Assembly (NCBI GenBank): GCA_902465105.1
Contig: CABQLM010000006.1
Span: forward strand, 1-44,505
Source: an uncultured Collinsella sp.
GTDB lineage: Bacteria; Actinomycetota; Coriobacteriia; Coriobacteriales; Coriobacteriaceae
Length of the DNA: 44,505 nt
Direction of reading: 5' to 3'
Part shown: positions 17,725 to 29,865 of the stretch, piece by piece
Layout: every line of letters starts with the position of its first letter
Numbering within the stretch: the stretch's first letter is position 1
Translations under genes and position numbers: made by a program
Notes under the pieces: model-generated
What the model was told of the DNA's origin: nothing
What the model saw: the letters and a program-made list of their open reading frames with translations, nothing else
Databases searched by the model: none

Positions 17725-18021
17725 CTAGCGGACGCGGCGCGAGGCGCGCGTGAGCAGGTAGTCGGCCACAAACAGGATGACGGCCACGATGGCGTAATCC
17801 AAGCGGAACACGCCGCCAAAAGGCGATGCGATAACGCCGTAGCCGGCGATGGAACTCGGCAGTGCGCGCGAAAGCTCGACGACAAAGCCGACGATCTGCA
17901 GCTTGGCGGTCAGGCCGCTAAAGCACAGCAGCACGGTCATAGCGCTCATAAAGATGCCGCAGATGCGGCACGCGATGGCAATGATGCTCATCGCCACGGC
18001 AGCGGCCTTACGAGAGTTCAC
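17725..18021 (-). CDS. small membrane protein, unknown
   Basis: A 98-residue protein from GTG 18021, which overlaps the ABC-F gene end by 14 bases and has GAGGAG about 5 bases upstream. Three hydrophobic stretches are seen (about 11-34, 38-55 and 68-90), with a basic end TRASRRVR. The longer open frame to 18141 would be buried in the ABC-F gene and is unlikely. No family is recognised. The tight packing between ABC-F and site-2 protease genes supports it being real. Confidence 0.7.
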
Positions 18022-20038
18022 GCGCGGTCTCCTCTTCGATCTGGGTGGAAAGCTCGAGCCATTCGTCCTCGAGCTTGGGCAGCTCTTGCTTAAGGCCGTT
18101 ATATTCCCCCAGCGCGGCGTTGAACTTGTCCTGATCGGCATAAAGCTCTTCGCTTGCCATCAATTCCATAAGCTCGTCATAGCGGGCACGCTTTTTGTCG
18201 AGCTCCGCCTCGATCTTCTTAAGCTGGTTGCGCACACCCTTGAGCTTTTTGTTGAGCGCGGCGCGGGCCTGGGCCTCGGCGCGCTTTTGCTCCTTGGTCT
18301 TTTTACCCTCGGCCGGCTTGGGGGCGGCGGCGCTGGGCTGGGTGGAGCTGGTCGGCTTGGTTGCCTTGGTCGCGGCCGGTATGCTCTCCCCTGCTGCCTC
18401 GGCGGCGGCGCGGGCTGCGAGGTCCTCGCGTTTGTAGAGGTAGTAGTCGTAGTCGCCGTCGTAGACCGTGACCTTGCCGTCGCGGATGTCGATGATACGG
18501 TTGGCCACGGCACGCACCAGGTGCTCGTCGTGGCTGATCAGCACGATAGTGCCTGGGAAGTTTTGCAGGGCGTTTTCGAGCATATCCACCGAGTCGATGT
18601 CCAGGTGGTTGGTGGGCTCGTCCAGGCAAAGGAGTGCCTCGGGGGCCACGAGCATCTTAGCCAGGGCCAAGCGCGCCTTTTCGCCGCCAGAGAGGACGCG
18701 TACCTGCTTTTCGATGGAATCGTTGTCGCTAAACAGGAAGGCGCCCAGCAGGCTGCGCTGCTGCGGCACGGTCCACTTGGGCGTAACGGTGTCGATTTCT
18801 TGCAGGACCGTGTTGGACTCGGTCATGCCCTCGAGAGCATGCTGGGCGTAATAGGCTACGCCCACGTTGGTGCCCAGGTCGCGCGTACCGGTAGTGGGCG
18901 GCTCCAGGCCGGCGAGGATCTTCATGAGGGTGGACTTGCCAGCGCCGTTGGGGCCGACGAGCGCCACGTGCTCGCCGCGGTAGAGTTTGAGGTCGATGTC
19001 GCTATAGATGTGCTTGTTGCCGTAGGACTTGGACACGCCCTCCAGGCCCACGACCATATCGCCGGAGCGTGGCGGATCGGGGAACTTAAAGTCGATGTGC
19101 TTGTGGCCTTCGGGCAGGATGACGAGCTCCTTTTTGATTTGCTCGATCTTGCGGATGCGCTCCTGCGCCTGGGCGGCCTTGGTGGGCTTGTAGCGGAACT
19201 TGTCAACGAAGACCTGCATGTGGGCGATGTCGCGCTCTTGGGCAGCGCGCTTGGCGCGCATTTGCTCCAGGTTGTCCTCGCGTTGCTTAAGGTAGCTGCT
19301 GTAGTTGCCGGTGTAGGTGGTCACGCGGCGGTTCTCGAGCGCGGCGACGTGGTCGACGCAGGCGTCCATAAAGGCTCGGTCGTGGCTGACGATGAGCACG
19401 GCACCGTCGTAGTTGGCGATAAAGCCGCGCAGCCACTGGACGCTCTCGAGGTCCAGATGGTTGGTGGGCTCGTCCAGAAGGAGCAGGTCGGGATGGCGCA
19501 GGAAGAGCTTGGCCAGCGCGATGCGCATCTGCCACCCGCCGGAAAACTCGGAACACGGGCGCTCAAAGTCAGTGACCTTAAAGCCTAGGCCGGACAGGAT
19601 CTTGCGGGCGTTGCTCTCGAGCTCGTAGCCGCCCAGATGCTCAAAGCGGTCCTGGACCTGGCCGTATTCGTTGAGGAGGGCGTCGACGTCCTTGCCCTGT
19701 TCGGAGAGCTCGGTGATCTGGGCCTGCAGCTCGTTAGCGCGCTCGCCCATGCGACGGATTTCCTTGGCAGCGGCCATGACCTCGGCAAGGATGGTGGTGT
19801 TCTTTTGCTCCAGGTTGGTTTCCTGCTCTAGGTAGCCTACCTGGCAGTCCTTTGCGTACTGGACCATGCCGGCGTCTGGGCTGTCGATGCCCATAATAAT
19901 CTTGAGCATGGTGGTTTTGCCGGCGCCGTTGGGGCCCACGAGCGCGAAGCGCTCGCCGGGGTTGATCTGGAAGGACGCGCCACTAAAGAGGACGCGCGCG
20001 CCGAAGCTTTTTTCGATCTTGTCGACCAGGAGGATCAT
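18008..20038 (-). CDS. ABC-F family ATPase
   Basis: A soluble protein with two ATP-binding cassettes and no membrane domain; the family acts on ribosomes, in translation or antibiotic protection. The 676 residues show Walker [10 protein letters not shown] (35-43), signature FSGGWQMR, Walker [14 protein letters not shown], then a linker with the PtIM-like arm ([20 protein letters not shown]). The second cassette has [20 protein letters not shown] and [12 protein letters not shown] Pro/Ala/Lys-rich spacer leads to a C-terminal coiled coil (about 580-670), as in Uup/YheS/YdiF. The exact subgroup cannot be told by eye. AAAGGCGG precedes ATG 20038. Confidence 0.93.
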
Positions 20039-20674: not shown

Positions 20675-20719
20675 TGGTGGGCCCTCCGGGATTCGAACCC
20701 AGAACCCAGGGATTATGAG
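20675..20719 (-). other. prophage attachment site: 3' half of a tRNA(CAT)
   Basis: The minus strand carries, in order, an anticodon loop CTCATAA (anticodon CAT), TCCCT (3' anticodon stem), variable loop GGGTT, T arm CTGGG TTCGAAT CCCGG, acceptor AGGGCCC, A and CCA. The bases preceding the loop (GCAAA) cannot pair with TCCCT, and no D arm or 5' acceptor exists, so tRNA identity stops at the anticodon loop. This is the usual footprint of phage integration into a tRNA 3' end. The tRNA is Met or Ile2 type. The intact copy should lie at the other prophage end, beyond 44,505. Confidence 0.8.
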
Positions 20720-20784
20720 TTTGCGCCAAGTGGAACAGATGGCACCTCTGTCTGCGGTTATACATTTTCACGGTCTGAAAGCCG

Positions 20785-20982: not shown

Positions 20983-22044
20983 CTAGTACGGGTTGCCGTC
21001 AGTGATGCACACCTGGAGTCGGTCAAGCGGCTCACCGTACATACCAGCGAAGTCATCGCCGCCGTAGGTGGAGCCATCGTCGCAGACGGTTCCGAGCCAT
21101 CCGGCGCGCGCGGTGGTCTGCGAGCGGTACCACGCCTGCTTGTACTCCTCGCCGCCCGGGGTCACGTAGTACATGCGCACGCCGTCGATGGTATGGCCGG
21201 CGATGCCGGCGCAACCGTTGACGGTGTCGTTGCGGTCGCCCTTGGTCACATAGCCGAGCCAGCCGTCCTCGATTGTGTGAACCTGATACTTGAGCGTGCC
21301 GCGGTCGACTCGGGCGCACAGCAGGTCGTGGCGCTTGCACGGGTAGCCAGCGAAACCATTATCGCCAGTGCCGAAGTCAGTCACCTCGTCCAGCCAGCCG
21401 CCGCCCTTGAGGTGGAGGGAGTAGTGGACGGGGACGCGCTTGCCAGATGCCTTTGAGAAGCCGCCAGATGCCGCCTGAGCGGGCTTTGCCGCCATAGGCT
21501 TAGCGGTGGAGGGGGCGGGCGCCTTGCCGCCCTTCATGGCGTCATACCACGCCTGCGCGCGCTGCATGTAATGGTCGCGCTGGGAGCCGGCCAGTTCTCC
21601 CGGGCATGCCGTGCTCGACCAATAGCGGTGCGGGAAGACGTTCTTGCACCACGCGGGACGGCCGAGCTTGTAATACAGGCACAGAGCCGCGACGAGGTGA
21701 GCGCCGCTTTCGATTGCCTTCTCGTGCACGGTCCACGGGCCGCGTGCGCTGTTGGCGTGCTCGATGCTGATGGTGGTATCGTTGCCGCGCCCCGTGCCGA
21801 TGCCGTCGCCACACGCCCATGCGCGGTCAGTATCATTAACGTGCTGCGTGATATAGCCGTTGCGATCGACCGCGTAATGCGCGGACGTGCCAGCGCCGCG
21901 CCAGATGCCGTTGCACTGGTTGCCGGTGAGGTCGCCCGCCATATGATGAATGGTTACGCCCCTGATGCCGAACGGGCGGCCAGCCGAGAAGTTGCAGCCG
22001 AGCAGCATATACTTGTCGGGCTGAACGTTTGCGAAGTCTGCCAT
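20983..22044 (-). CDS. phage endolysin, N-acetylmuramoyl-L-alanine amidase
   Basis: A 353-residue cell-wall hydrolase. The N-terminal Amidase_2/PGRP domain has zinc-site signatures GVTIHHMAG (H33/H34), [19 protein letters not shown] (E95) and H139 with C147 in [13 protein letters not shown] Pro/Ala/Lys linker (about 170-195) leads to a C-terminal region with repeated elements [22 protein letters not shown] and [11 protein letters not shown], presumably wall binding. ATG 22044 has AAGGAGG upstream and overlaps the holin stop (TAATG). The open frame further upstream is holin sequence out of frame. It is placed after the holin, as in many siphoviruses. Confidence 0.93.
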
Positions 22045-22349
22045 TAGTCCTCCTTGATGTCGCCGAGCGCCAGAAGCGCGTCGAGCCATTTGTCGGTAAC
22101 ACCGACGGTCTTGAAGGCCGCGTAGGCCACCTGCACGCCGCCGACGCAGGCGAAGATGGACGTAACCCATGCCGACGCATCGGTCGGCATACCGCCCGAC
22201 ATGGCCGTGAGGACGCCGCATAGCGCCGATACCCCAATGGCAATCCAGCGTGCCACGTTGCCTGTCATGGCCTTCGATTTAATGGCCTGCACGATGTACG
22301 GCACGACCAGCACCGTGCATACCGTCAGGCCCGCCTGAATCTCATTCAT
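22044..22349 (-). CDS. phage holin
   Basis: A 101-residue protein with three hydrophobic stretches (about 7-23, 33-50 and 60-80) and charged ends (MNE, GDIKED). The pattern CTVLVVPYIVQAIKSK, then an AIGVSALCGVL helix, matches small phage holins that open the membrane for the endolysin. GGAG lies about 8 bases before ATG 22349. It sits between a coiled-coil membrane protein gene and the endolysin. Confidence 0.8.
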   Translation of the reverse strand: MNEIQAGLTVCTVLVVPYIVQAIKSKAMTGNVARWIAIGVSALCGVLTAMSGGMPTDASAWVTSIFACVGGVQVAYAAFKTVGVTDKWLDALLALGDIKED

Positions 22350-22850: not shown

Positions 22851-22899
22851 AAATCCCAGACGTAACGCGGCGGGCTACCATGCGAAACGTCTGGGATTT
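22851..22899. terminator. long-armed hairpin between lysis genes and recombinase
   Basis: AAATCCCAGACGT (22851-22863) and ACGTCTGGGATTT (22887-22899) are perfect 13-bp inverted arms around 23 bases. The plus side ends in TTTT. It may stop leftward or rightward transcripts. The arms contain ATCCCAG, also the end of the shufflon core, so a recombinase-binding role is worth keeping open. Confidence 0.45.
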
Positions 22900-22921: not shown

Positions 22922-23788
22922 ATGCTGTTTTCCGCCGCAGTAACCGAGTACATGGCCGACAAGGGCAAGCGTCTCCGCGCCACCACACTGGAGGGCTACC
23001 GCAGCGCAATACGCTGCCACCTGATGCCGCAGTGGGGCGGGCGCGAAATCGAGACGATCACATTCGAGCAGGTGCAAGATTGGGTGGACAGGTTCGACCT
23101 CCCCGGCGCAGCTGAAAAGGCGTACAAAACTTTCCGCCAGATATACCGCTGGGTCTTGCGCCGCCACCAGCTGCGCATATGGGACGTGACGCAGGGCGTG
23201 GAGCTGCCGAAAAAGCCCGCCGTGCGCCGACCGACGCTCACTGCCGAGCAGGAGCGCGTGACGCTCAAAGCGATAGTCGGACAGCCATTCGAGGCCGCCG
23301 TGCTCTTGGGCGCCGCGCTCGGGCTGCGTCGCTGCGAGGCGTGCGCCGTGCGCATCGAGGGTGTTGACTGGCGTAGCGGATGGGTGCATGTGCGACGCGG
23401 GCTGCATGTCGTGGGTGGCGAGGTCATCGAGACTGGATGCAAGACAAAGCTGTCAGACCGCAAGCTGAAACTGCCGCGATTCGCCCTAGAGCGGTTGCGC
23501 ATGATTCGCGGCTCGCGTAGGTCTGGGCGGCTTTGCCTGCTAGACCCGAATGCCGTGGCCCGCCGCTTCAGCGCGTTCTGCAAGCAACACGAGCTGCCGC
23601 ATGTGCCGATGACATGCCTGCGCCACTCATGGGCGACCATATCGCTTGAGCGCGGTGCGGCCATCGAGGATATAGCCGTGGCGCTGGGGCACAGTACGGT
23701 CAACACGGCCATGAGCCACTACCTGCAATCATTCCGCACGGTCGAGGCCAGGGCGAGCGATTCATACACGGCGGCGATGGAGATGTAG
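22922..23788 (+). CDS. tyrosine recombinase, likely shufflon invertase (Rci-like)
   Basis: A 288-residue recombinase, opposite in strand to the phage genes. The N-terminal SAM-like core-binding domain covers about 1-85 (TTLEGYRSAIRCHLMPQWGG). The catalytic domain has GLRRCEA (R136), a beta-hairpin lysine in GCKTKLSDR (K174/K176), TCLRHSWAT with R234 but Thr231 where the HxxR His normally sits, ALGHS (H257) and the nucleophile in SHYLQS (Y267). The gene stops three bases before recombination site A, the same arrangement as rci beside the R64 shufflon. It could instead be the integrase, but it is 2 kb from the attachment site with lysis genes between. Start: ATG 22922; ATG 22880 would lie in a hairpin and add 14 residues. 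Neither has a good ribosome site. Confidence 0.85.
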   Translation: MLFSAAVTEYMADKGKRLRATTLEGYRSAIRCHLMPQWGGREIETITFEQVQDWVDRFDLPGAAEKAYKTFRQIYRWVLRRHQLRIWDVTQGVELPKKPAVRRPTLTAEQERVTLKAIVGQPFEAAVLLGAALGLRRCEACAVRIEGVDWRSGWVHVRRGLHVVGGEVIETGCKTKLSDRKLKLPRFALERLRMIRGSRRSGRLCLLDPNAVARRFSAFCKQHELPHVPMTCLRHSWATISLERGAAIEDIAVALGHSTVNTAMSHYLQSFRTVEARASDSYTAAMEM

Positions 23789-23789
23789 G

Positions 23790-23807
23790 GCATTCCGTAT
23801 CCCAGCC
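23790..23807 (+). repeat. shufflon recombination site A
   Basis: GCATTCCGTATCCCAGCC. The 14-bp core ATTCCGTATCCCAG (23792-23805) is common to four sites. Forward orientation; left end of module 1, directly behind the recombinase stop. Confidence 0.85.
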
Positions 23808-24090
23808 GGTGAAGCTCTACGATGACGGCAAGGGTGTGTGCTGGTACTGCCGCACGGGCAACGTCGTTACAGTTGTATGCCAGAACGTGCAGGTCGAGGC
23901 GAAGAAGGAAGTCCAACTTGGTGTGTTGCCCGAGGAGCTGCGTCCGAGCGTGCGCTTTGTCGGCTTCGGCATCATCCCCGGCTCTGTCAGCGTCGGTCAG
24001 ATCGCGGCAAACGTCAGCGGCAACGTGCGTGTGTACAGCGCGAGCGGAACGGGTGCGTTTACCGCGAATCTGACCTATCCGATTGTCTAG
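23794..24090 (+). other. silent receptor-binding cassette A (98 codons)
   Basis: In the frame set by the core, this cassette reads SVSQPVKLYDDGKGVCWYC, later VLPEELRPSVRFVGFG and ends FTANLTYPIV at TAG 24088-24090. It has no start or ribosome site of its own. Inversion between site A and site D would place it after the fixed 167-residue N-terminus, giving a 265-residue protein. It resembles cassette C (LP-ELRP followed by a Gly/aromatic segment), which suggests the same beta-rich receptor-binding fold with diverged surface. Its stop codon shares CTAG with cassette B. Confidence 0.8.
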
Positions 24091-24371
24091 GCGAGATTCT
24101 TCCTGTACAGCACGGTGAGCGTGACTTTCAAATCTCGCCACGTGCCTCTGTTGGAAACCTCGTTGTTCTGGATACCCGCAAATGCGGTTCCATCGCTGCG
24201 AAGCCCGAATTGCGTCACGACGCATGAACCTGTGTGATTCGACTTTACTTCCGTGATGCACACGGGCGTATAGCCGTCAATTTTCACGCTTGTATCAATA
24301 GCAGCAGATGCTCCATATTTAATGACTTGCGCAGTGGATGTAAACGTTTTAGTCGTGTACTGGGATACGGA
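24087..24371 (-). other. silent receptor-binding cassette B (94 codons)
   Basis: On the minus strand the frame from the core reads SVSQYTTKTFTSTAQVIKYG, later VKIDGYTPVCITEVKSNHTG and ends LTVLYRKNLA at TAG 24087-24089. It differs from the other three in sequence type and has lower GC, so it was probably acquired separately. It lies in the same direction as the expressed copy, so two inversions would be needed: first module 1 (A x B), then A x D. The fusion product would be 261 residues. An ATG inside (24287) is not preceded by a convincing ribosome site. Confidence 0.8.
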
Positions 24372-24375
24372 ATGC
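24360..24375 (-). repeat. shufflon recombination site B
   Basis: CTGGGATACGGAATGC on the plus strand, i.e. the core in reverse. It shares GC before the core with site A but is followed by TA instead of CC. Right end of module 1. Confidence 0.85.
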
Positions 24376-24398
24376 TACCGCTTAAGTTTTGAGCTGTA
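24376..24398. other. 23-bp spacer between the two invertible modules
   Basis: It lies between sites B and C and contains CTTAAG and a CGCTTAAGTTTTGAGC stretch. It is too short to code. Recombination between B and C would only flip this spacer. Confidence 0.6.
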
Positions 24399-24414
24399 AT
24401 TCCGTATCCCAGCC
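24399..24414 (+). repeat. shufflon recombination site C
   Basis: ATTCCGTATCCCAGCC in forward orientation; left end of module 2. Confidence 0.85.
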
Positions 24415-24712
24415 ACCAGTGATGCTCTATACCGAGCGCGACGGCAACGGCACCGTTTATTACCGCAAATCCGGCGGGCTGGTCTGCATCGTGGTCAATT
24501 TCGTGTCGATCGAGCAGAAGAAGGAGAAGGTGTTCGGCACGCTCCCCGCCGAGCTGCGGCCTGAACATGACGTAATCGGCTACGGATGGGCGCGTGGCAC
24601 AAGCAGCTCAATCGGCCAGGTCGCGGTCAATGTTGACGGCAAGGTCACCGGATGGTGCAGCATCGCGTCAACGAAATATTTCTGCGGCTCAATCTGCTAT
24701 CCGCTGCCCTAG
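24401..24712 (+). other. silent receptor-binding cassette C (103 codons)
   Basis: Reads SVSQPPVMLYTERDGNGTVY, then GTLPAELRPEHDVIGYGW, SSIGQVAVNVDGKVTG and ends CGSICYPLP at TAG 24710-24712. The frame is that of the fixed tail-protein N-terminus, and no independent start with a ribosome site is present. One inversion (C x D) would express it as a 270-residue protein. The stop codon shares CTAG with the expressed cassette D on the other strand. Confidence 0.8.
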
Positions 24713-25548
24713 ACGGGGTAGCAGAAATCGACGGAGTAGTAACTGCATGGGGAGCCCGAAGTGTTACGCACAGAGAGCTTCTTCGTTCCCCTTTCGACGC
24801 GCACGCCGACGGAGTCGGTGAAGCTCGTTCCCTGCTTCGGATAGCAGGCGGCTGACGCGCCGTGTGCTGACGGCAGGGCCTCGTCCGGTAGCGTGGCGAT
24901 GTCCGTTTCCGCGCGCGCCGCTGCTTTGACGCTCCAGTTTCCGCCGCAGTCGATGCTCAGATAGCAGATACCATTGCAGACTCGGTAGGCCAAATGGTTG
25001 TCGTCGATTCTGCCTTTGAGCACAGTCCATGCTGGCTGGGATACGGAATCCCCGAGCGTGGCAAGCGGGGTCAGGACGGAGAACAGCGGCTCCGGGTCGC
25101 TCGCGTTGATGCCGCTCAGCTTGACGCGGTACAGAGGCATGAATGCCTCGGCGTCGCCCTTGAGCAGATCGCCCGCCGCGAATGCCGGGTCCGCCGCCGC
25201 GCCCTCGCTCGCCGCCGGCTCGCCGGTGAGCACCTGGAGCTCGAGACCCTCGCGGCCGCTCGTCTCGCGTGAGAAGTGCATGCCGACGATGTCGTGCCGG
25301 AACTGTCCCTGTGTGCCGCTCTGGATGTTGACGGTCGTCGTGGTCGAGCAGCGGAAGCGGGACCCCTGGAGGCTGCCAGCGCCCGTGCCGATCGTGACGG
25401 TGTTGGCGTCGACGAGCGTCGCCTTGAGCTGCGACCCCGTCGGGAAGACATAGCTGTCGAGGCCGGTGATTCCGGCCAAGCACTCGCGGTCGTCCGCCGC
25501 CTGGATGTTCTGCTCGCCGGTCGCGCCGGTCATTAGCTTCACGCCCAT
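24709..25548 (-). CDS. phage receptor-binding / tail fibre protein with switchable C-terminus
   Basis: A 279-residue protein. Residues 1-167 are fixed (MGVKLMTGATGEQNIQAADD, ending LATLGD) and resemble baseplate-attachment regions of siphovirus tail proteins, with GSLQGSRFRCSTTTTVNIQ and MPLYRVKLSGIN. Residues 168-279 (from SVSQPAWTVLKG) are the cassette now in place, with YLSIDCGGNW, LPDEALPS and a Cys-containing end SVDFCYPV. The 14-bp core lies across the border. By position (last tail gene, before lysis) it should contact the host surface. It would be transcribed in the late operon. Confidence 0.85.
   Translation of the reverse strand: MGVKLMTGATGEQNIQAADDRECLAGITGLDSYVFPTGSQLKATLVDANTVTIGTGAGSLQGSRFRCSTTTTVNIQSGTQGQFRHDIVGMHFSRETSGREGLELQVLTGEPAASEGAAADPAFAAGDLLKGDAEAFMPLYRVKLSGINASDPEPLFSVLTPLATLGDSVSQPAWTVLKGRIDDNHLAYRVCNGICYLSIDCGGNWSVKAAARAETDIATLPDEALPSAHGASAACYPKQGTSFTDSVGVRVERGTKKLSVRNTSGSPCSYYSVDFCYPV
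25034..25049 (-). repeat. shufflon recombination site D (expression site)
   Basis: GGCTGGGATACGGAAT on the plus strand; on the minus strand it is the core followed by CC. It lies within the coding sequence and is read as Asp/Ser-Val-Ser-Gln-Pro. Right end of module 2. Confidence 0.85.
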
Positions 25549-25824: not shown

Positions 25825-26805
25825 TTACTCGAATTCCTTCTCGTCCTTCCACGACGCGAAGTCCGGCGTGACGGTCGCGTGGCCGTCGGCCACCTTCACG
25901 GTCAGCTTCGTCACCGTGCCGCGCGTCGATACCCCGACGGCGGGCGAGTACGCCGTGACCGTGTCGCCCACGGCCACGCCCGCGCCCGAGTCGAGGTCGA
26001 CGTCGATGTCGTCGGTCTGCCGCAGCTTGGCCAGCTTGTCGCGCGCCTTGACCTTCAGGTCCGCGAGCTCGGCGTTGCTGTAGTCGTAGACGTAGCATCT
26101 CTCGTCGAGGCCCGTCATGGTCTGGTGCTCGGAGATGTTGCCCGCCGCGTCGCTGTACAGATGGTAGACGGCGCGTGACGCGCCCTCGCCCTTGCCCAGC
26201 GCGATGAGGTGGTTGTACTTGCGGTAGTCCAGCTCCGCGCTGTACACGGTCGAGCCGGAGACGCCCGGCACGTCGCCCCAGTCGCGCACCGGCACCGCCG
26301 ACAGCACGCACCTCATGGCCGCCGTGTCCCACGCCGCCCTGAGGCGCGCCCCCGACGCCGCCAGCATCTCGACGATGCCGGCGTAGCCGGAGCGGTAGCG
26401 GAAGGACCCTGCGACGTTGATGCCGGCGTAGCTGCCCGCGCCGAAGATGTCGCCGAGGCCCATCGCCTGCACGAGCCGGCGCAGCACCGCGTTCGCGTCG
26501 CCGCTCACGGCGAGGCGCGCCTTGCCCGAAGGCGGGCAGATGACGTGGTCCTCCAGGATGCCGTGCCACGTCCGCCCCTTGTAGCTGATCGCGTCGCCGT
26601 ACCTCGTGCGCGCCGGGCAGAGGACCGACACGACGCCGCCGTACTCCGTGCCGGGCACGAAGACGCGGCTCCCCGGCTCGATGCCGGAGGCACCCGGCGC
26701 GGACAGCTCGAAGTCGTTCTCGTCCGCGCCGAAGGCCATGTCCAGATCGAAGGAGCGCAGGCGGGACACCGTGCGCCCCCTCGGGTCCGTCACGAAGAGG
26801 TCCAT
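25825..26805 (-). CDS. phage tail/baseplate protein (ReqiPepy6 Gp37-like)
   Basis: A 326-residue protein. The opening MDLFVTDPRGRTVSRLRSFD and the following FGADENDFELSAPG, GTEYGGVVS, YKGRTWHGILEDHVICPPSG match the layout of Gp37-like siphovirus tail proteins, which sit at the tail tip after Dit. The later half (YNHLIALGKGEG, VAVGDTVTAYSP) looks like a baseplate hub region. ATG 26805 overlaps the Dit stop by 16 bases. The open frame upstream to 27570 is Dit read in another frame. Confidence 0.75.
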   Translation of the reverse strand: MDLFVTDPRGRTVSRLRSFDLDMAFGADENDFELSAPGASGIEPGSRVFVPGTEYGGVVSVLCPARTRYGDAISYKGRTWHGILEDHVICPPSGKARLAVSGDANAVLRRLVQAMGLGDIFGAGSYAGINVAGSFRYRSGYAGIVEMLAASGARLRAAWDTAAMRCVLSAVPVRDWGDVPGVSGSTVYSAELDYRKYNHLIALGKGEGASRAVYHLYSDAAGNISEHQTMTGLDERCYVYDYSNAELADLKVKARDKLAKLRQTDDIDVDLDSGAGVAVGDTVTAYSPAVGVSTRGTVTKLTVKVADGHATVTPDFASWKDEKEFE

Positions 26806-27623
26806 GGCACCGCACCGTCCTCTCGGTAGACCTCGAGGTCCCATCCGAAGCTGCCGTCGTAGCTCACGGTCGACGTGCCCACCGGGATGTCCTCGAAGAT
26901 GTACGAGCCGCTGCCCGCGCCGCCGCCGAGCACGGCGTCCGGCAGTGCGTTGGTCCTGTACCCGTTCTTGGCGACCTTGGTCACGGTGCCCTCGATGGAG
27001 TCGATGAGCAGGTAGCCGCCGTCCGGCACGTCGGTCGATACCTGGTACCGGTTGCCGCCCACCGTCACGGACGGGCGCACGGCCGGCCCGTAGACGATGA
27101 TGCGGAAGGGCGACGCGACGATGCTGCCGACCTCGATCTCTCTGCTCGTCTCCTCGCTGTAAGGATAGCCGTAGGCGTACCCGTAGTCGTAGCCGTGGCC
27201 CGCGCCGACGGTGCCCGAGCCCGCGCCCGGGCGGAACTCGTAGGCCTCCTTGCGGCGCCAGACGCCGTCCAGCAGCACGGCCTCCAGCTTCACGACGGCC
27301 GCGCCCCCGGTCACGGCCTTGGCCTCGACGCCCGCGATGTAGCAGCGCTGGCTCCAGCCGTCGAAGTCGAGCGTGCCCGGCGTCATGGACGCGAGGTCCG
27401 CGTCGGCGGCCAGGCGCAGGGCGTCGGCCGCCGCGAGGTCGAGCATCGCGACCGTCACGGTCTCCTTGCGCGCCTTGCGCGCCGCGTAGGACAGGTCCCG
27501 GTAGCCGGCCTTGTAGTCCCAGCTGTCCGCGCGCACCGCGCCCGGCTCGCCGCCGACGATGCGCGCGCACTGCATGTCGTGGCGCGCCCTCGTCACGGCG
27601 CTCGTGTAGCCCAGGCTACGCAT
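26790..27623 (-). CDS. phage distal tail protein (Dit-like)
   Basis: A 277-residue protein just downstream of the tape measure, the standard Dit position. The region AYEFRPGAGSGTVGAGHGYD with a Tyr/Gly run (YDYGYAYGYPY), then EVGSIVASPFRIIVYG, TVGGNRYQV and GGYLLIDSIEGTVTKV is typical of the Dit C-terminal galectin-like domain, which binds the next baseplate protein. It overlaps the tape-measure end by 8 bases and the Gp37-like start by 16. Confidence 0.8.
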   Translation of the reverse strand: MRSLGYTSAVTRARHDMQCARIVGGEPGAVRADSWDYKAGYRDLSYAARKARKETVTVAMLDLAAADALRLAADADLASMTPGTLDFDGWSQRCYIAGVEAKAVTGGAAVVKLEAVLLDGVWRRKEAYEFRPGAGSGTVGAGHGYDYGYAYGYPYSEETSREIEVGSIVASPFRIIVYGPAVRPSVTVGGNRYQVSTDVPDGGYLLIDSIEGTVTKVAKNGYRTNALPDAVLGGGAGSGSYIFEDIPVGTSTVSYDGSFGWDLEVYREDGAVPWTSS

Positions 27624-29865
27624 ATGCCACCGCCTTCCTCGCGAGTCGGTCGAAGTCCCTCATTCCGGTGTACGGCGTGCGGCTCGCGATCACGTCGCCC
27701 AGGTTCGCGTCGAGCCACGCCACGACCGACGCCGTCGCCGCCGCGCTTCGGACGTCGGGCGCGTCCATCTGGATGCTGCCCGCCTCCGCCACGGCGGCCA
27801 TGGCCTTTTCGGCGGCGCCCAGCGGCAGCCCGGCATTCTGCTCGATGCCGAGTCTCATGCCCTCCATCGTGTAGAAGCCGAACTTCTTGAACACCTTCGA
27901 GGGCGACGCGATGCCGAGGATGTGCTTCGCGAAGTCGACGGCGTTGCCGATGGCGTTGGAGATGGCGTCCTTGACCCTGCCGGCCGCGCCCGTGATGCCG
28001 TTCACGATGCCCTGGATGATGTTCGAGCCGATGTTGCCCAGCGTGCCCGGGATGGCCGCGAGGCCGCTGCGCAGCCTGCTGCCGAACTGCGACGCCGCAG
28101 ACGTGGCGTTGCTCGCGAACTGCGACACCCATCCGACGACGGTCGAGATGGCTCCCGACAGCCATGACGCGACGTTGCCCGCGAGGCCCGACATGAACCC
28201 GGCTAGACCGGAGATGAACCGCGAGCCGGCGCTCACGGCCTGCGAGGCCATGCTGGTAACCCATCCCACCACGGCCGAGATGGCGCCCGAAAGCCACGAC
28301 GCGATCAGACCCGGCAGCGCCATGAGCGCCGTGCCGACTATCGAGACGAACCCGAGCGCCGCGTTGATGCCGTCGAGCAGCCCGTCGGCGAAGGCGACCA
28401 CGGCGTCGACGACGGCCGCGATGGTCTCCGCCAGCGCCGCAACGACCGTGACGACGGCCGCGACGGCGAGCCCGAGCGCCGCTCCTAGCAGCTCGGCGAT
28501 GGCCTCGAGCCACGGCTGCGCCGCCTGGACCGCGTCCATGAGGTCGGCCCAAGCCGACGACAGCAGGTCGAGCGCCGGCGCGAGGTACGACTCCGCCGCC
28601 TGCCCGAGGCCCGTCATGAAGGACTCCGCCGTCTCGAGCGCCGTCGAGATCGCTCCAAGCGTCGAGGAGAAGGCGTCCGACTTGAACGCGTCGGTCAGCG
28701 CCGACGTGATGCCCGATAGGTCGGGCGTCGCGCCGGAGAACGCGCCGTCGAGCAGGCCCTTCACCGAACCGGACAGGCCGCTGCCGTCGACGGCCTCGAA
28801 TGCCGCCGACAGCATGTTCTGCACGTCGCCCGGGAGCGACTGCCACAGCGTGTCGAGCGCCGTGGAGAACAGCTCGCTGAAGAACGAGGCCACCTCCGGC
28901 GCGAGCGTGCCGACAAGCTCCGGGAGCGACTCGATGACGGTTGTCACGATCTCCGTCACGCGGGGCAGGACGTTGGACGCGACAGTCTCGAGCGAATCGG
29001 CGAGCGCCGATGTCGTCTCGCTGACGTCCCAGTCCTCGGAGCCGAGCGACGTGAGCCAGTTCTCCCACGCCGCCTTCATCATGCCCACGGAGCCCTCGAT
29101 GGTGGTCGCCGCCTCGCGCGACGTCGTGCCCGCTATCTGCTGCTTCTGCTGCACCAGGTCGATGGCGTCGACGATGTCAGAGAAGCTGTCGATGGACAGA
29201 TCCCCGGCCTTGCCGATGGACTTGCCGTACTCGTTGGCGTCGTCGATGAGGCGCTGCATCTCGGACTGCGTGCCGCCGTAGCCCAGCTTCAGGTTGTCCA
29301 GCATCGTGTAGTTCTGCTTGGCGAAGCCCTGGTAGGCATTCTGGACGTCCTGCATGGACGTGCCGAAGGTGTTGACGTTGTCGGACATGGACACCATGGC
29401 CTTCTGGGTCTGCGCGGCCGCCTTCTCGGTGTCGCCGCCCAGCGAGTTGATGAGCGCCGCCGAGAAGCTCGTGGCCTGCTCCATGTAGGCGTTCGCGCTC
29501 ATGCCGCACGTGGCGAAGGCGCCCTGAGCCTGCTTGAGCATCGTCGTCTGCGCGTTGCCCAGCGCCTGCCACTTGGCGCGCGCCTGGTCCGTGGTCTGGC
29601 CCACGCTCGCCGCGTACTCCCCGAGGGTCAAGCCCATGTTGCCGTACAGCTTCTGTATGCCGCCGACGTTCTGCTCGTAGGCCGAGTACCCGTCGAGCGA
29701 CGCCTTGGTGACGGCCGCCACCCCCGCCGCCGCGGCGGCGACGCCGCCCGCGACCACCTTGGCCGCGCCGCCCACGATGCCGGCCGCCTTGCCGCCGATC
29801 TCGGCCAGCTTCGACGTCGCCTGGTCGTCGACGCCGACCTTGACCATCAAATCCAAGAGGTTCAT
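27616..29865 (-). CDS. phage tail tape measure protein
   Basis: A 749-residue protein that sets tail length and is packed inside the tail tube. It begins with a coil region MNLLDLMVKVGVDDQATSKL, then a hydrophobic Ala/Gly/Val section, YEQNVGGIQKLYG and a conserved block with MKAAWENWLTSLGSE. Several hydrophobic stretches (about 430-560) and repeats of the SWLSGAISTVVGWV type follow. The end carries VDFAKHILGIASPSKVFKKF, a well-known tape-measure motif. Its size would suit a tail of roughly 110 nm by the usual 1.5 A per residue rule. Confidence 0.95.
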   Translation of the reverse strand: MNLLDLMVKVGVDDQATSKLAEIGGKAAGIVGGAAKVVAGGVAAAAAGVAAVTKASLDGYSAYEQNVGGIQKLYGNMGLTLGEYAASVGQTTDQARAKWQALGNAQTTMLKQAQGAFATCGMSANAYMEQATSFSAALINSLGGDTEKAAAQTQKAMVSMSDNVNTFGTSMQDVQNAYQGFAKQNYTMLDNLKLGYGGTQSEMQRLIDDANEYGKSIGKAGDLSIDSFSDIVDAIDLVQQKQQIAGTTSREAATTIEGSVGMMKAAWENWLTSLGSEDWDVSETTSALADSLETVASNVLPRVTEIVTTVIESLPELVGTLAPEVASFFSELFSTALDTLWQSLPGDVQNMLSAAFEAVDGSGLSGSVKGLLDGAFSGATPDLSGITSALTDAFKSDAFSSTLGAISTALETAESFMTGLGQAAESYLAPALDLLSSAWADLMDAVQAAQPWLEAIAELLGAALGLAVAAVVTVVAALAETIAAVVDAVVAFADGLLDGINAALGFVSIVGTALMALPGLIASWLSGAISAVVGWVTSMASQAVSAGSRFISGLAGFMSGLAGNVASWLSGAISTVVGWVSQFASNATSAASQFGSRLRSGLAAIPGTLGNIGSNIIQGIVNGITGAAGRVKDAISNAIGNAVDFAKHILGIASPSKVFKKFGFYTMEGMRLGIEQNAGLPLGAAEKAMAAVAEAGSIQMDAPDVRSAAATASVVAWLDANLGDVIASRTPYTGMRDFDRLARKAVAYA

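Follow-up and report, generated by a model that had tools for sequence, protein, structure and literature searches.

A Rin-type shufflon predicted to switch the receptor-binding head of a Collinsella prophage

Introduction

Can an integrated phage of a gut actinobacterium exchange the end of the protein with which it binds its host? The question is raised by a stretch of 44,505 nucleotides from an uncultured Collinsella sp. (contig CABQLM010000006.1 of assembly GCA_902465105.1, hereafter the window), where four copies of a short sequence, the rix sites, delimit four alternative C-termini (cassettes A to D) of one receptor-binding protein (RBP) gene, next to a tyrosine recombinase gene, rin. 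A first reading of the letters alone, here called the original prediction, had proposed an RBP shufflon; it was silent on the recombinase gene, and the coordinate at which it began, 22922, is the likely ATG of rin. The proposal is now supported by the adjacent recombinase, by an RBP-like fold with the crossover at a domain border, by inversions in relatives and by relatives of all four cassettes on N-termini about 95% identical. We conclude that the locus is very probably a Rin-type shufflon of an integrated phage, whose enzyme likely inverts modules and places one of four heads in frame behind the RBP's constant N-terminal 167 residues (Rc). The direct evidence comprises the anatomy, the reading frames, homology, a predicted fold of the D form and, in relatives, inversions at this type of site.

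Results

Four identical sites open four alternative C-termini

The 14-bp sequence ATTCCGTATCCCAG is present in four exact copies (Table 1). It is the sole 14-mer with at least four copies in the window, and no such 14-mer arose in any of 200 dinucleotide shuffles. The four copies had been located correctly save for the second, which starts at 24360 and not at 24362. Every site opens the frame TCC-GTA-TCC (Ser-Val-Ser) and, as predicted, all four frames match that of the fixed part and stay open for 94-112 codons. The remaining two frames from the site are open for 5 and 9 codons in A, 28 and 6 in B, 6 and 53 in C, and 29 and 93 in D. Added to the 167 fixed residues, the codon counts agree with the four proteins announced earlier, of 279 (D), 270 (C), 265 (A) and 261 (B) residues. 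D is fused to the constant part, as claimed. That A, B and C lack starts is correct as far as an ATG at the site is concerned, and has to be qualified by in-frame GTG/TTG codons, at 23809 in A and at 24389, shortly before C. Cassettes A and B are convergent, as are C and D, and the stop codons of each pair overlap in a common CTAG. A and C are 43% identical, D is distant from both (about 24%), and B has no significant similarity to the other cassettes of the window.

Rin would likely invert the two back-to-back modules bounded by these sites. Recombination of the opposed sites 1x2, 3x4 and 1x4, with strand exchange inside the central TTCCGTA, would flip A/B or C/D, or swap both modules, and the reading frame would be kept because every site sits in the same Ser-Val-Ser frame. 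One of four alternative heads would be joined in frame to the constant part, and the switched heads are predicted to let the phage alter which cells are bound. The eight arrangements counted in the original prediction hold if the outward-facing sites 2 and 3, 25 bp apart, stay unused.

The crossover falls at the border of the receptor-binding head

In the predicted D form, the fixed domain has a fold like that of the phage 1358 and p2 RBPs, and the variable head a fold like that of bIL170 and TP901-1. According to these matches, the crossover residue, Ser168, lies where the tail-attachment/shoulder domain meets the receptor-binding head, so that each inversion would, on this model, replace the whole head and probably also the surface structure bound. 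The PHROG matches of the N-terminus are mostly of 'unknown function', with weak 'head protein' labels, as might be found if the switched protein were a structural part of the tail, varying so as to escape antibodies or change stability and not for host binding. We judge this very unlikely in view of the fold matches to lactococcal RBPs, with a head-domain match for exactly the variable part, and of the position of the gene after those for the tape measure, Dit and the minor tail protein.

An armless tyrosine recombinase lies beside the array

A longer open reading frame (ORF) of 302 amino acids starts at 22880, within the leader repeat of rin, and contains a PF14659 core-binding domain (residues 17-71) and PF00589 (139-284). 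No arm-binding domain was matched in the domain search; the product opens directly with a core-binding domain that is XerD-like, and XerC/XerD structure chains match. Numbered from ATG 22922, residues R136, K174, R234, H257 and Y267, which we take to be the catalytic residues of tyrosine recombinases, are invariant across 18 aligned relatives; 21 of the 288 residues follow Tyr267. Viral contigs contain seven rin relatives at 81-93% identity and one at 55%. With bifidobacterial phage PMBT6 (the comparison being with this phage and not with Bb423phi1), rin shares 37% identity over 90% of the query and the RBP base 32%. Two other classes were rejected: an integron, the integron integrase model TIGR02249 scoring 36.6 bits, far under its cut-off of 265, and a serine invertase system of the Gin/Cin/Min kind, the enzyme being a tyrosine recombinase.

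Databases label the enzyme 'integrase' (PHROGs; annotation of PMBT6), and no second integrase is visible in the window, the right end of the prophage lying outside it. An ordinary prophage integrase, with incidental repeats and an array that passively stores tail-fibre ends for exchange by homologous recombination, is nevertheless extremely improbable. We collected 48 distinct rin genes, and after removal of L014, L025, L032 and L097, too short downstream, 44 loci were usable. In 42 of these 44, searched within about 30 nt, the first site lies 2-8 nt past the first base of the rin stop codon. Moreover, rin is located between tail and lysis genes and not at a prophage end, a second integrase is present in 2 of 7 related records, and the inversions in relatives end exactly in the core, which is too short for homologous recombination.

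Related arrays differ by inversion

A single arrangement in all related prophages would have spoken against the original prediction; instead, two pairs, L008/L010 and L004/L005, differ by inversion. Locus L008 and locus L010 (Collinsella stercoris DSM 13279) are 100% identical over all 12.2 kb of L008, bar 1,095 bp in the opposite orientation. TTCCGTA is common to the two ends of this inversion, and the crossover lies within these bases. In the metagenome contigs L004 and L005, the flanks are 100% identical and the array is re-ordered, a difference that two inversions without loss would explain in our reconstruction. Finally, L029 and L085, with 96% identity over the 2.46 kb that lead to the array, have their cassettes in opposite orientation. 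We infer that Rin performs the inversion here, that it occurs in this strain and that it changes host range.

One tail base bears many heads

The 279-residue protein has 874 database relatives, and the figures that follow are from the 120 listed among them. Their N-termini are 91-97% identical to Rc, and SVS is found at the join region in 102 of them, with few exceptions at residue 168. Single-linkage clustering of the C-termini gives 27 clusters at E <= 1e-4, 51 at >= 50% identity (the incomplete protein P0039 counting as one) and 72 at >= 80%. One near-constant tail base thus bears 51 head clusters, or 27 at the loosest linkage, and these phages therefore appear to draw on a large common pool of receptor specificities. 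All four window cassettes, not the fused D alone, have relatives on N-termini about 95% identical in public proteins (Table 1). With the D head alone as query, eight proteins were obtained, P0004 among them. The N-terminus is diverged in P0124 and P0128, and those of P0125, P0126, P0127, P0129 and P0130 are of three other kinds, seemingly unrelated as judged by eye; the join reads DSVS in seven of the eight and NSVS in P0004.

Several observations weigh against a working RBP shufflon. Whole-protein TM-scores to the p2 RBP are low (0.33-0.36), and among the top VIA rows are also tail proteins of other kinds (phi812 baseplate, HFTV1 fibre). Where a cassette has a match on near-identical Rc, the identity is 73-91%, so that these are other phages and not this one; Rc and cassette C had no confirmed relative in exact-word scans of viral contigs. 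A separate integrase beyond the window, where the right end of the prophage lies, would not show, and the second integrases of related records, above cut-off, may be fragments. The HxxR catalytic box of the window enzyme lacks its usual first His (position 231). Finally, this exact prophage was observed in one arrangement, a second not being found.

The last two points would also suit a locus that has kept the Rin architecture and no longer inverts, through a damaged enzyme or locked sites. We consider such a dead shufflon unlikely: rin is an intact ORF with seven close relatives (81-93% identity), the four sites are identical over 14 bp with four open frames, and the His is missing in all 18 aligned Rin (compare the XerC-like chain 4a8e), among them that of C. 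stercoris, in which both orientations of the array occur.

The locus belongs to the Rin family

Judged by its sequence, the locus is a Rin shufflon, of a family known from Bifidobacterium and Eggerthella lenta prophages, to which a Collinsella-type member is newly added; we assign it so because the four tested features of the system of PMC6109161 match and because ttccgtat lies within the site. As in Bb423phi1 and its relatives (PMC6109161), an armless tyrosine recombinase lies beside an array of variable RBP C-termini, with short asymmetric sites ahead of each C-terminus and within the RBP gene. The constant N-terminus has 168 residues there and 167 here, the C-termini 95-100 and 94-112, and Rc is akin to the phage 1358 RBP and the C-termini to the TP901-1 RBP. 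By contrast, the bifidobacterial site is TTCCCTAACCC and not ATTCCGTATCCCAG, its genes are mainly in tandem whereas two convergent back-to-back modules are found here, and inversion was sequenced there whereas here it is predicted from anatomy and relatives. The E. lenta clade 1 Rin (PMC8778435) shares a host of the class Coriobacteriia, and its 8-bp site ttccgtat sits inside that of the window; the host genus differs, and the likeness is one of description, not of compared sequences.

The parallel named in the original prediction, Rci of R64, fits less well than the bifidobacterial prophage loci that it also mentioned, which are Rin. The R64/IncI2 shufflon (Rci, sfx, pilV; PMC11852207, PMC5430464) likewise has a number of invertible segments, most of them containing two partial ORFs in opposite orientation, by which an adhesin C-terminus is swapped, and its orders number 2^n x n!. 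However, its target is the plasmid-borne pilus adhesin pilV, with 31-bp sfx sites, whereas the target here is phage-RBP-like and the site sequence is another; Rci also has an extra C-terminal domain (PMC11852207), which the window enzyme lacks. Gin, Cin and Min of phages Mu, P1 and p15B switch tail-fibre ends by inversion (PMC6109161) and are serine recombinases. In the literature searched, which left out most subscription journals and preprints so that absence is unproven, we found no further description of such a locus in Collinsella or of cassette exchange between phages. The locus extends a little-studied phage switch to a further group of gut actinobacterial hosts; more weight attaches to the broader comparison across relatives than to the locus itself. 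Beyond the consulted parts of PMC6109161 and PMC8778435, that comparison brings array-specific site bases 5-9, cassettes common to distant phages, heads on other tail N-termini and a covarying rin leader.

Crossover bases agree within arrays

L035 and L090, which have no convincing site at the rin stop, were set aside, leaving 42 arrays with 176 sites. To be accepted, a site could differ at no more than 2 of 12 positions from the first site and likewise from the array consensus, a limit that misses strongly diverged sites. Over these arrays the 12-mer is ATTCCGTATCCC, with little conservation beyond it. Bases 5-9 take 9 forms between arrays, CGTAT being that of 27 of the 42, and are identical within 40 of the 42. 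Two sites agree at base 6 in 99% of cases within an array versus 55% between arrays, figures to be read knowing that the mismatch limit somewhat favours within-array agreement and that the sites within an array may be of recent common descent. The exceptions to within-array identity are L007, through one doubtful site (site 2), and L010, through a site with TTCCGTAG; some L010 sites are doubtful too, and one inside its RBP gene is uncounted. This within-array match is the trace that would be expected of a recombinase needing matching crossover bases, and the pattern fits the TTCCGTA bound from L008/L010. The +-+- arrangement, two convergent back-to-back modules, is found only in the window's array among the 42.

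In L058, the first site (2436-2458) is an overlapping inverted pair (TTCCGTATCCCAAAATACGGAA), nearly symmetric, which is unusual for an inversion-biased system.

Cassettes are shared between phages

Twenty-eight cassette pairs, not mutually independent, are common to different arrays. Homology begins at most 12 nt from the rix start in 19 of them; the neighbouring stretch is homologous too in eight, and one pair has no block. Four single-cassette blocks end at most 5 nt from the next rix (L046/L063, L087/L089, L006/L063 and L084/L085). The L046/L063 cassette is 91% identical over 313 nt, compared with 36% for the RBP bases and 45% for the 87 comparable rin residues. The pairs L087/L089 and L084/L085 are from related phages and show gain or loss of a whole cassette between direct sites, which bears on the avoidance of deletion between direct rix sites, a question left open in PMC6109161. 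In IncI2 shufflons, whole segments inserted or deleted among close relatives have already been described (PMC5430464); cassette exchange between distant phages was not met in the parts of the literature consulted. At L085 site 4 and L093 site 1, the sequences are 100% identical over 3,853 nt to the right of rix and 71% identical to the left, a boundary that is due either to site-specific recombination between phages or to a chimeric contig.

A predicted covarying hairpin precedes rin

The leader element upstream of rin is predicted to fold with -31.3 kcal/mol (z -5.1). Among the 40 arrays with at least 120 nt upstream, the inverted pair is found near the rin start in 22 and is missing from 18, with no occurrence elsewhere in the 353,968 bp of those loci. 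The gap between ATCCCA and TGGGAT is 33 or 34 nt in 20 loci; one further locus has 35 and another 36. The stem has seven invariant pairs, and the next five, the inner stem, covary, with a score of 0.518 versus 0.197 (standard deviation 0.041) after shuffling; none of 500 shuffles scored as high, and slid controls reached at most 0.236. Two of five covariation measures were unexceptional: double-change pairs (126 of 500 shuffles as high) and further pair types (65 of 500). In viral contigs the exact pattern occurs in 18 stretches, all beside rin; in the family of genome G001 it occurs in 4 of 137 genomes, again always beside rin, and the exact form is absent from most of the family's 15 genomes that encode a rin relative. 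In common with the right end of the window's site, the arms have ATCCCAG; the last two bases of the site (AG) are only partly conserved across arrays. A terminator, an attenuator and a Rin operator are candidate roles for the leader; an attenuator restrains the recombinase of the pneumococcal tvr locus (PMC6265443).

It is nearly as likely as not that the rix core is a universal socket, and that cassettes pass from phage to phage as rix-to-rix units, by integron-like site-specific recombination that can also put them on unrelated tail N-termini. The crossover bases of each array would then be its compatibility code, the hairpin leader with its ATCCCAG arms would set the amount of Rin, and Rin loci would be an exchange system for heads, beyond private switches.

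Layout of the window

Table 1. Features of the locus and its surroundings, in window coordinates
Feature	Position	Strand	Evidence
rin leader element, inverted repeat AAATCCCAGACGT-N23-ACGTCTGGGATTT	22851..22899	+	RNA hairpin predicted immediately before rin
rin, tyrosine recombinase, 288 aa from ATG 22922	22922..23788	+	PF00589, PF14659; XerD/XerC-like
rix site 1	23792..23805	+	exact copy; 3 bp past rin stop codon
Cassette A, silent, 98-aa alternative RBP C-terminus	23794..24090	+	open frame; P0016 relative 73%
Cassette B, silent, 94-aa alternative RBP C-terminus	24087..24371	-	stop overlaps A stop; P0081 85%, P0108 73%
rix site 2	24360..24373	-	exact copy
25-bp spacer separating outward-facing sites 2 and 3	24374..24398	.	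sequence
rix site 3	24399..24412	+	exact copy
Cassette C, silent, 103-aa alternative RBP C-terminus	24401..24712	+	open frame; P0025 89%, P0027 87%
Cassette D, fused C-terminus, 112 aa	24709..25047	-	stop overlaps C stop; P0004 91%; head-domain fold
rix site 4, within RBP gene at codons Asp167-Ser168-Val-Ser	25036..25049	-	exact copy
Rc, constant 167-residue RBP N-terminal part	25048..25548	-	fold like 1358/p2 RBP N-terminal part
Lysis genes: endolysin 20983-22047, holin 22044-22349	20983..22349	-	PHROGs; opposite side of rin
Upstream tail genes: minor tail protein 25825-26805, Dit 26790-27623, tape measure 27616-29865	25825..29865	-	PHROGs

The left 20 kb or so of the window are bacterial chromosome, after which the integrated phage begins. 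The chromosomal gene at 18008-20038 has 95% identity in genome G007 (genus set of C. stercoris) and 77% in C. stercoris G002, which points to a host of the Collinsella type. A partial tRNA (3' part; anticodon CAT, CCA end) was read from the sequence at 20675-20725 (-), where ARAGORN made no call; it is probably the attL of the prophage in a tRNA-Met gene. The prophage genes follow in the order endolysin and holin (-), rin (+), cassette array, RBP base, minor tail protein, Dit and tape measure (PHROGs), with portal-like and terminase-like proteins farther along, both under the NCBI cut-offs. ARAGORN also called a tRNA-Ala (cgc) at 28198-28278 (-), within the tape-measure gene, which is probably a false positive.

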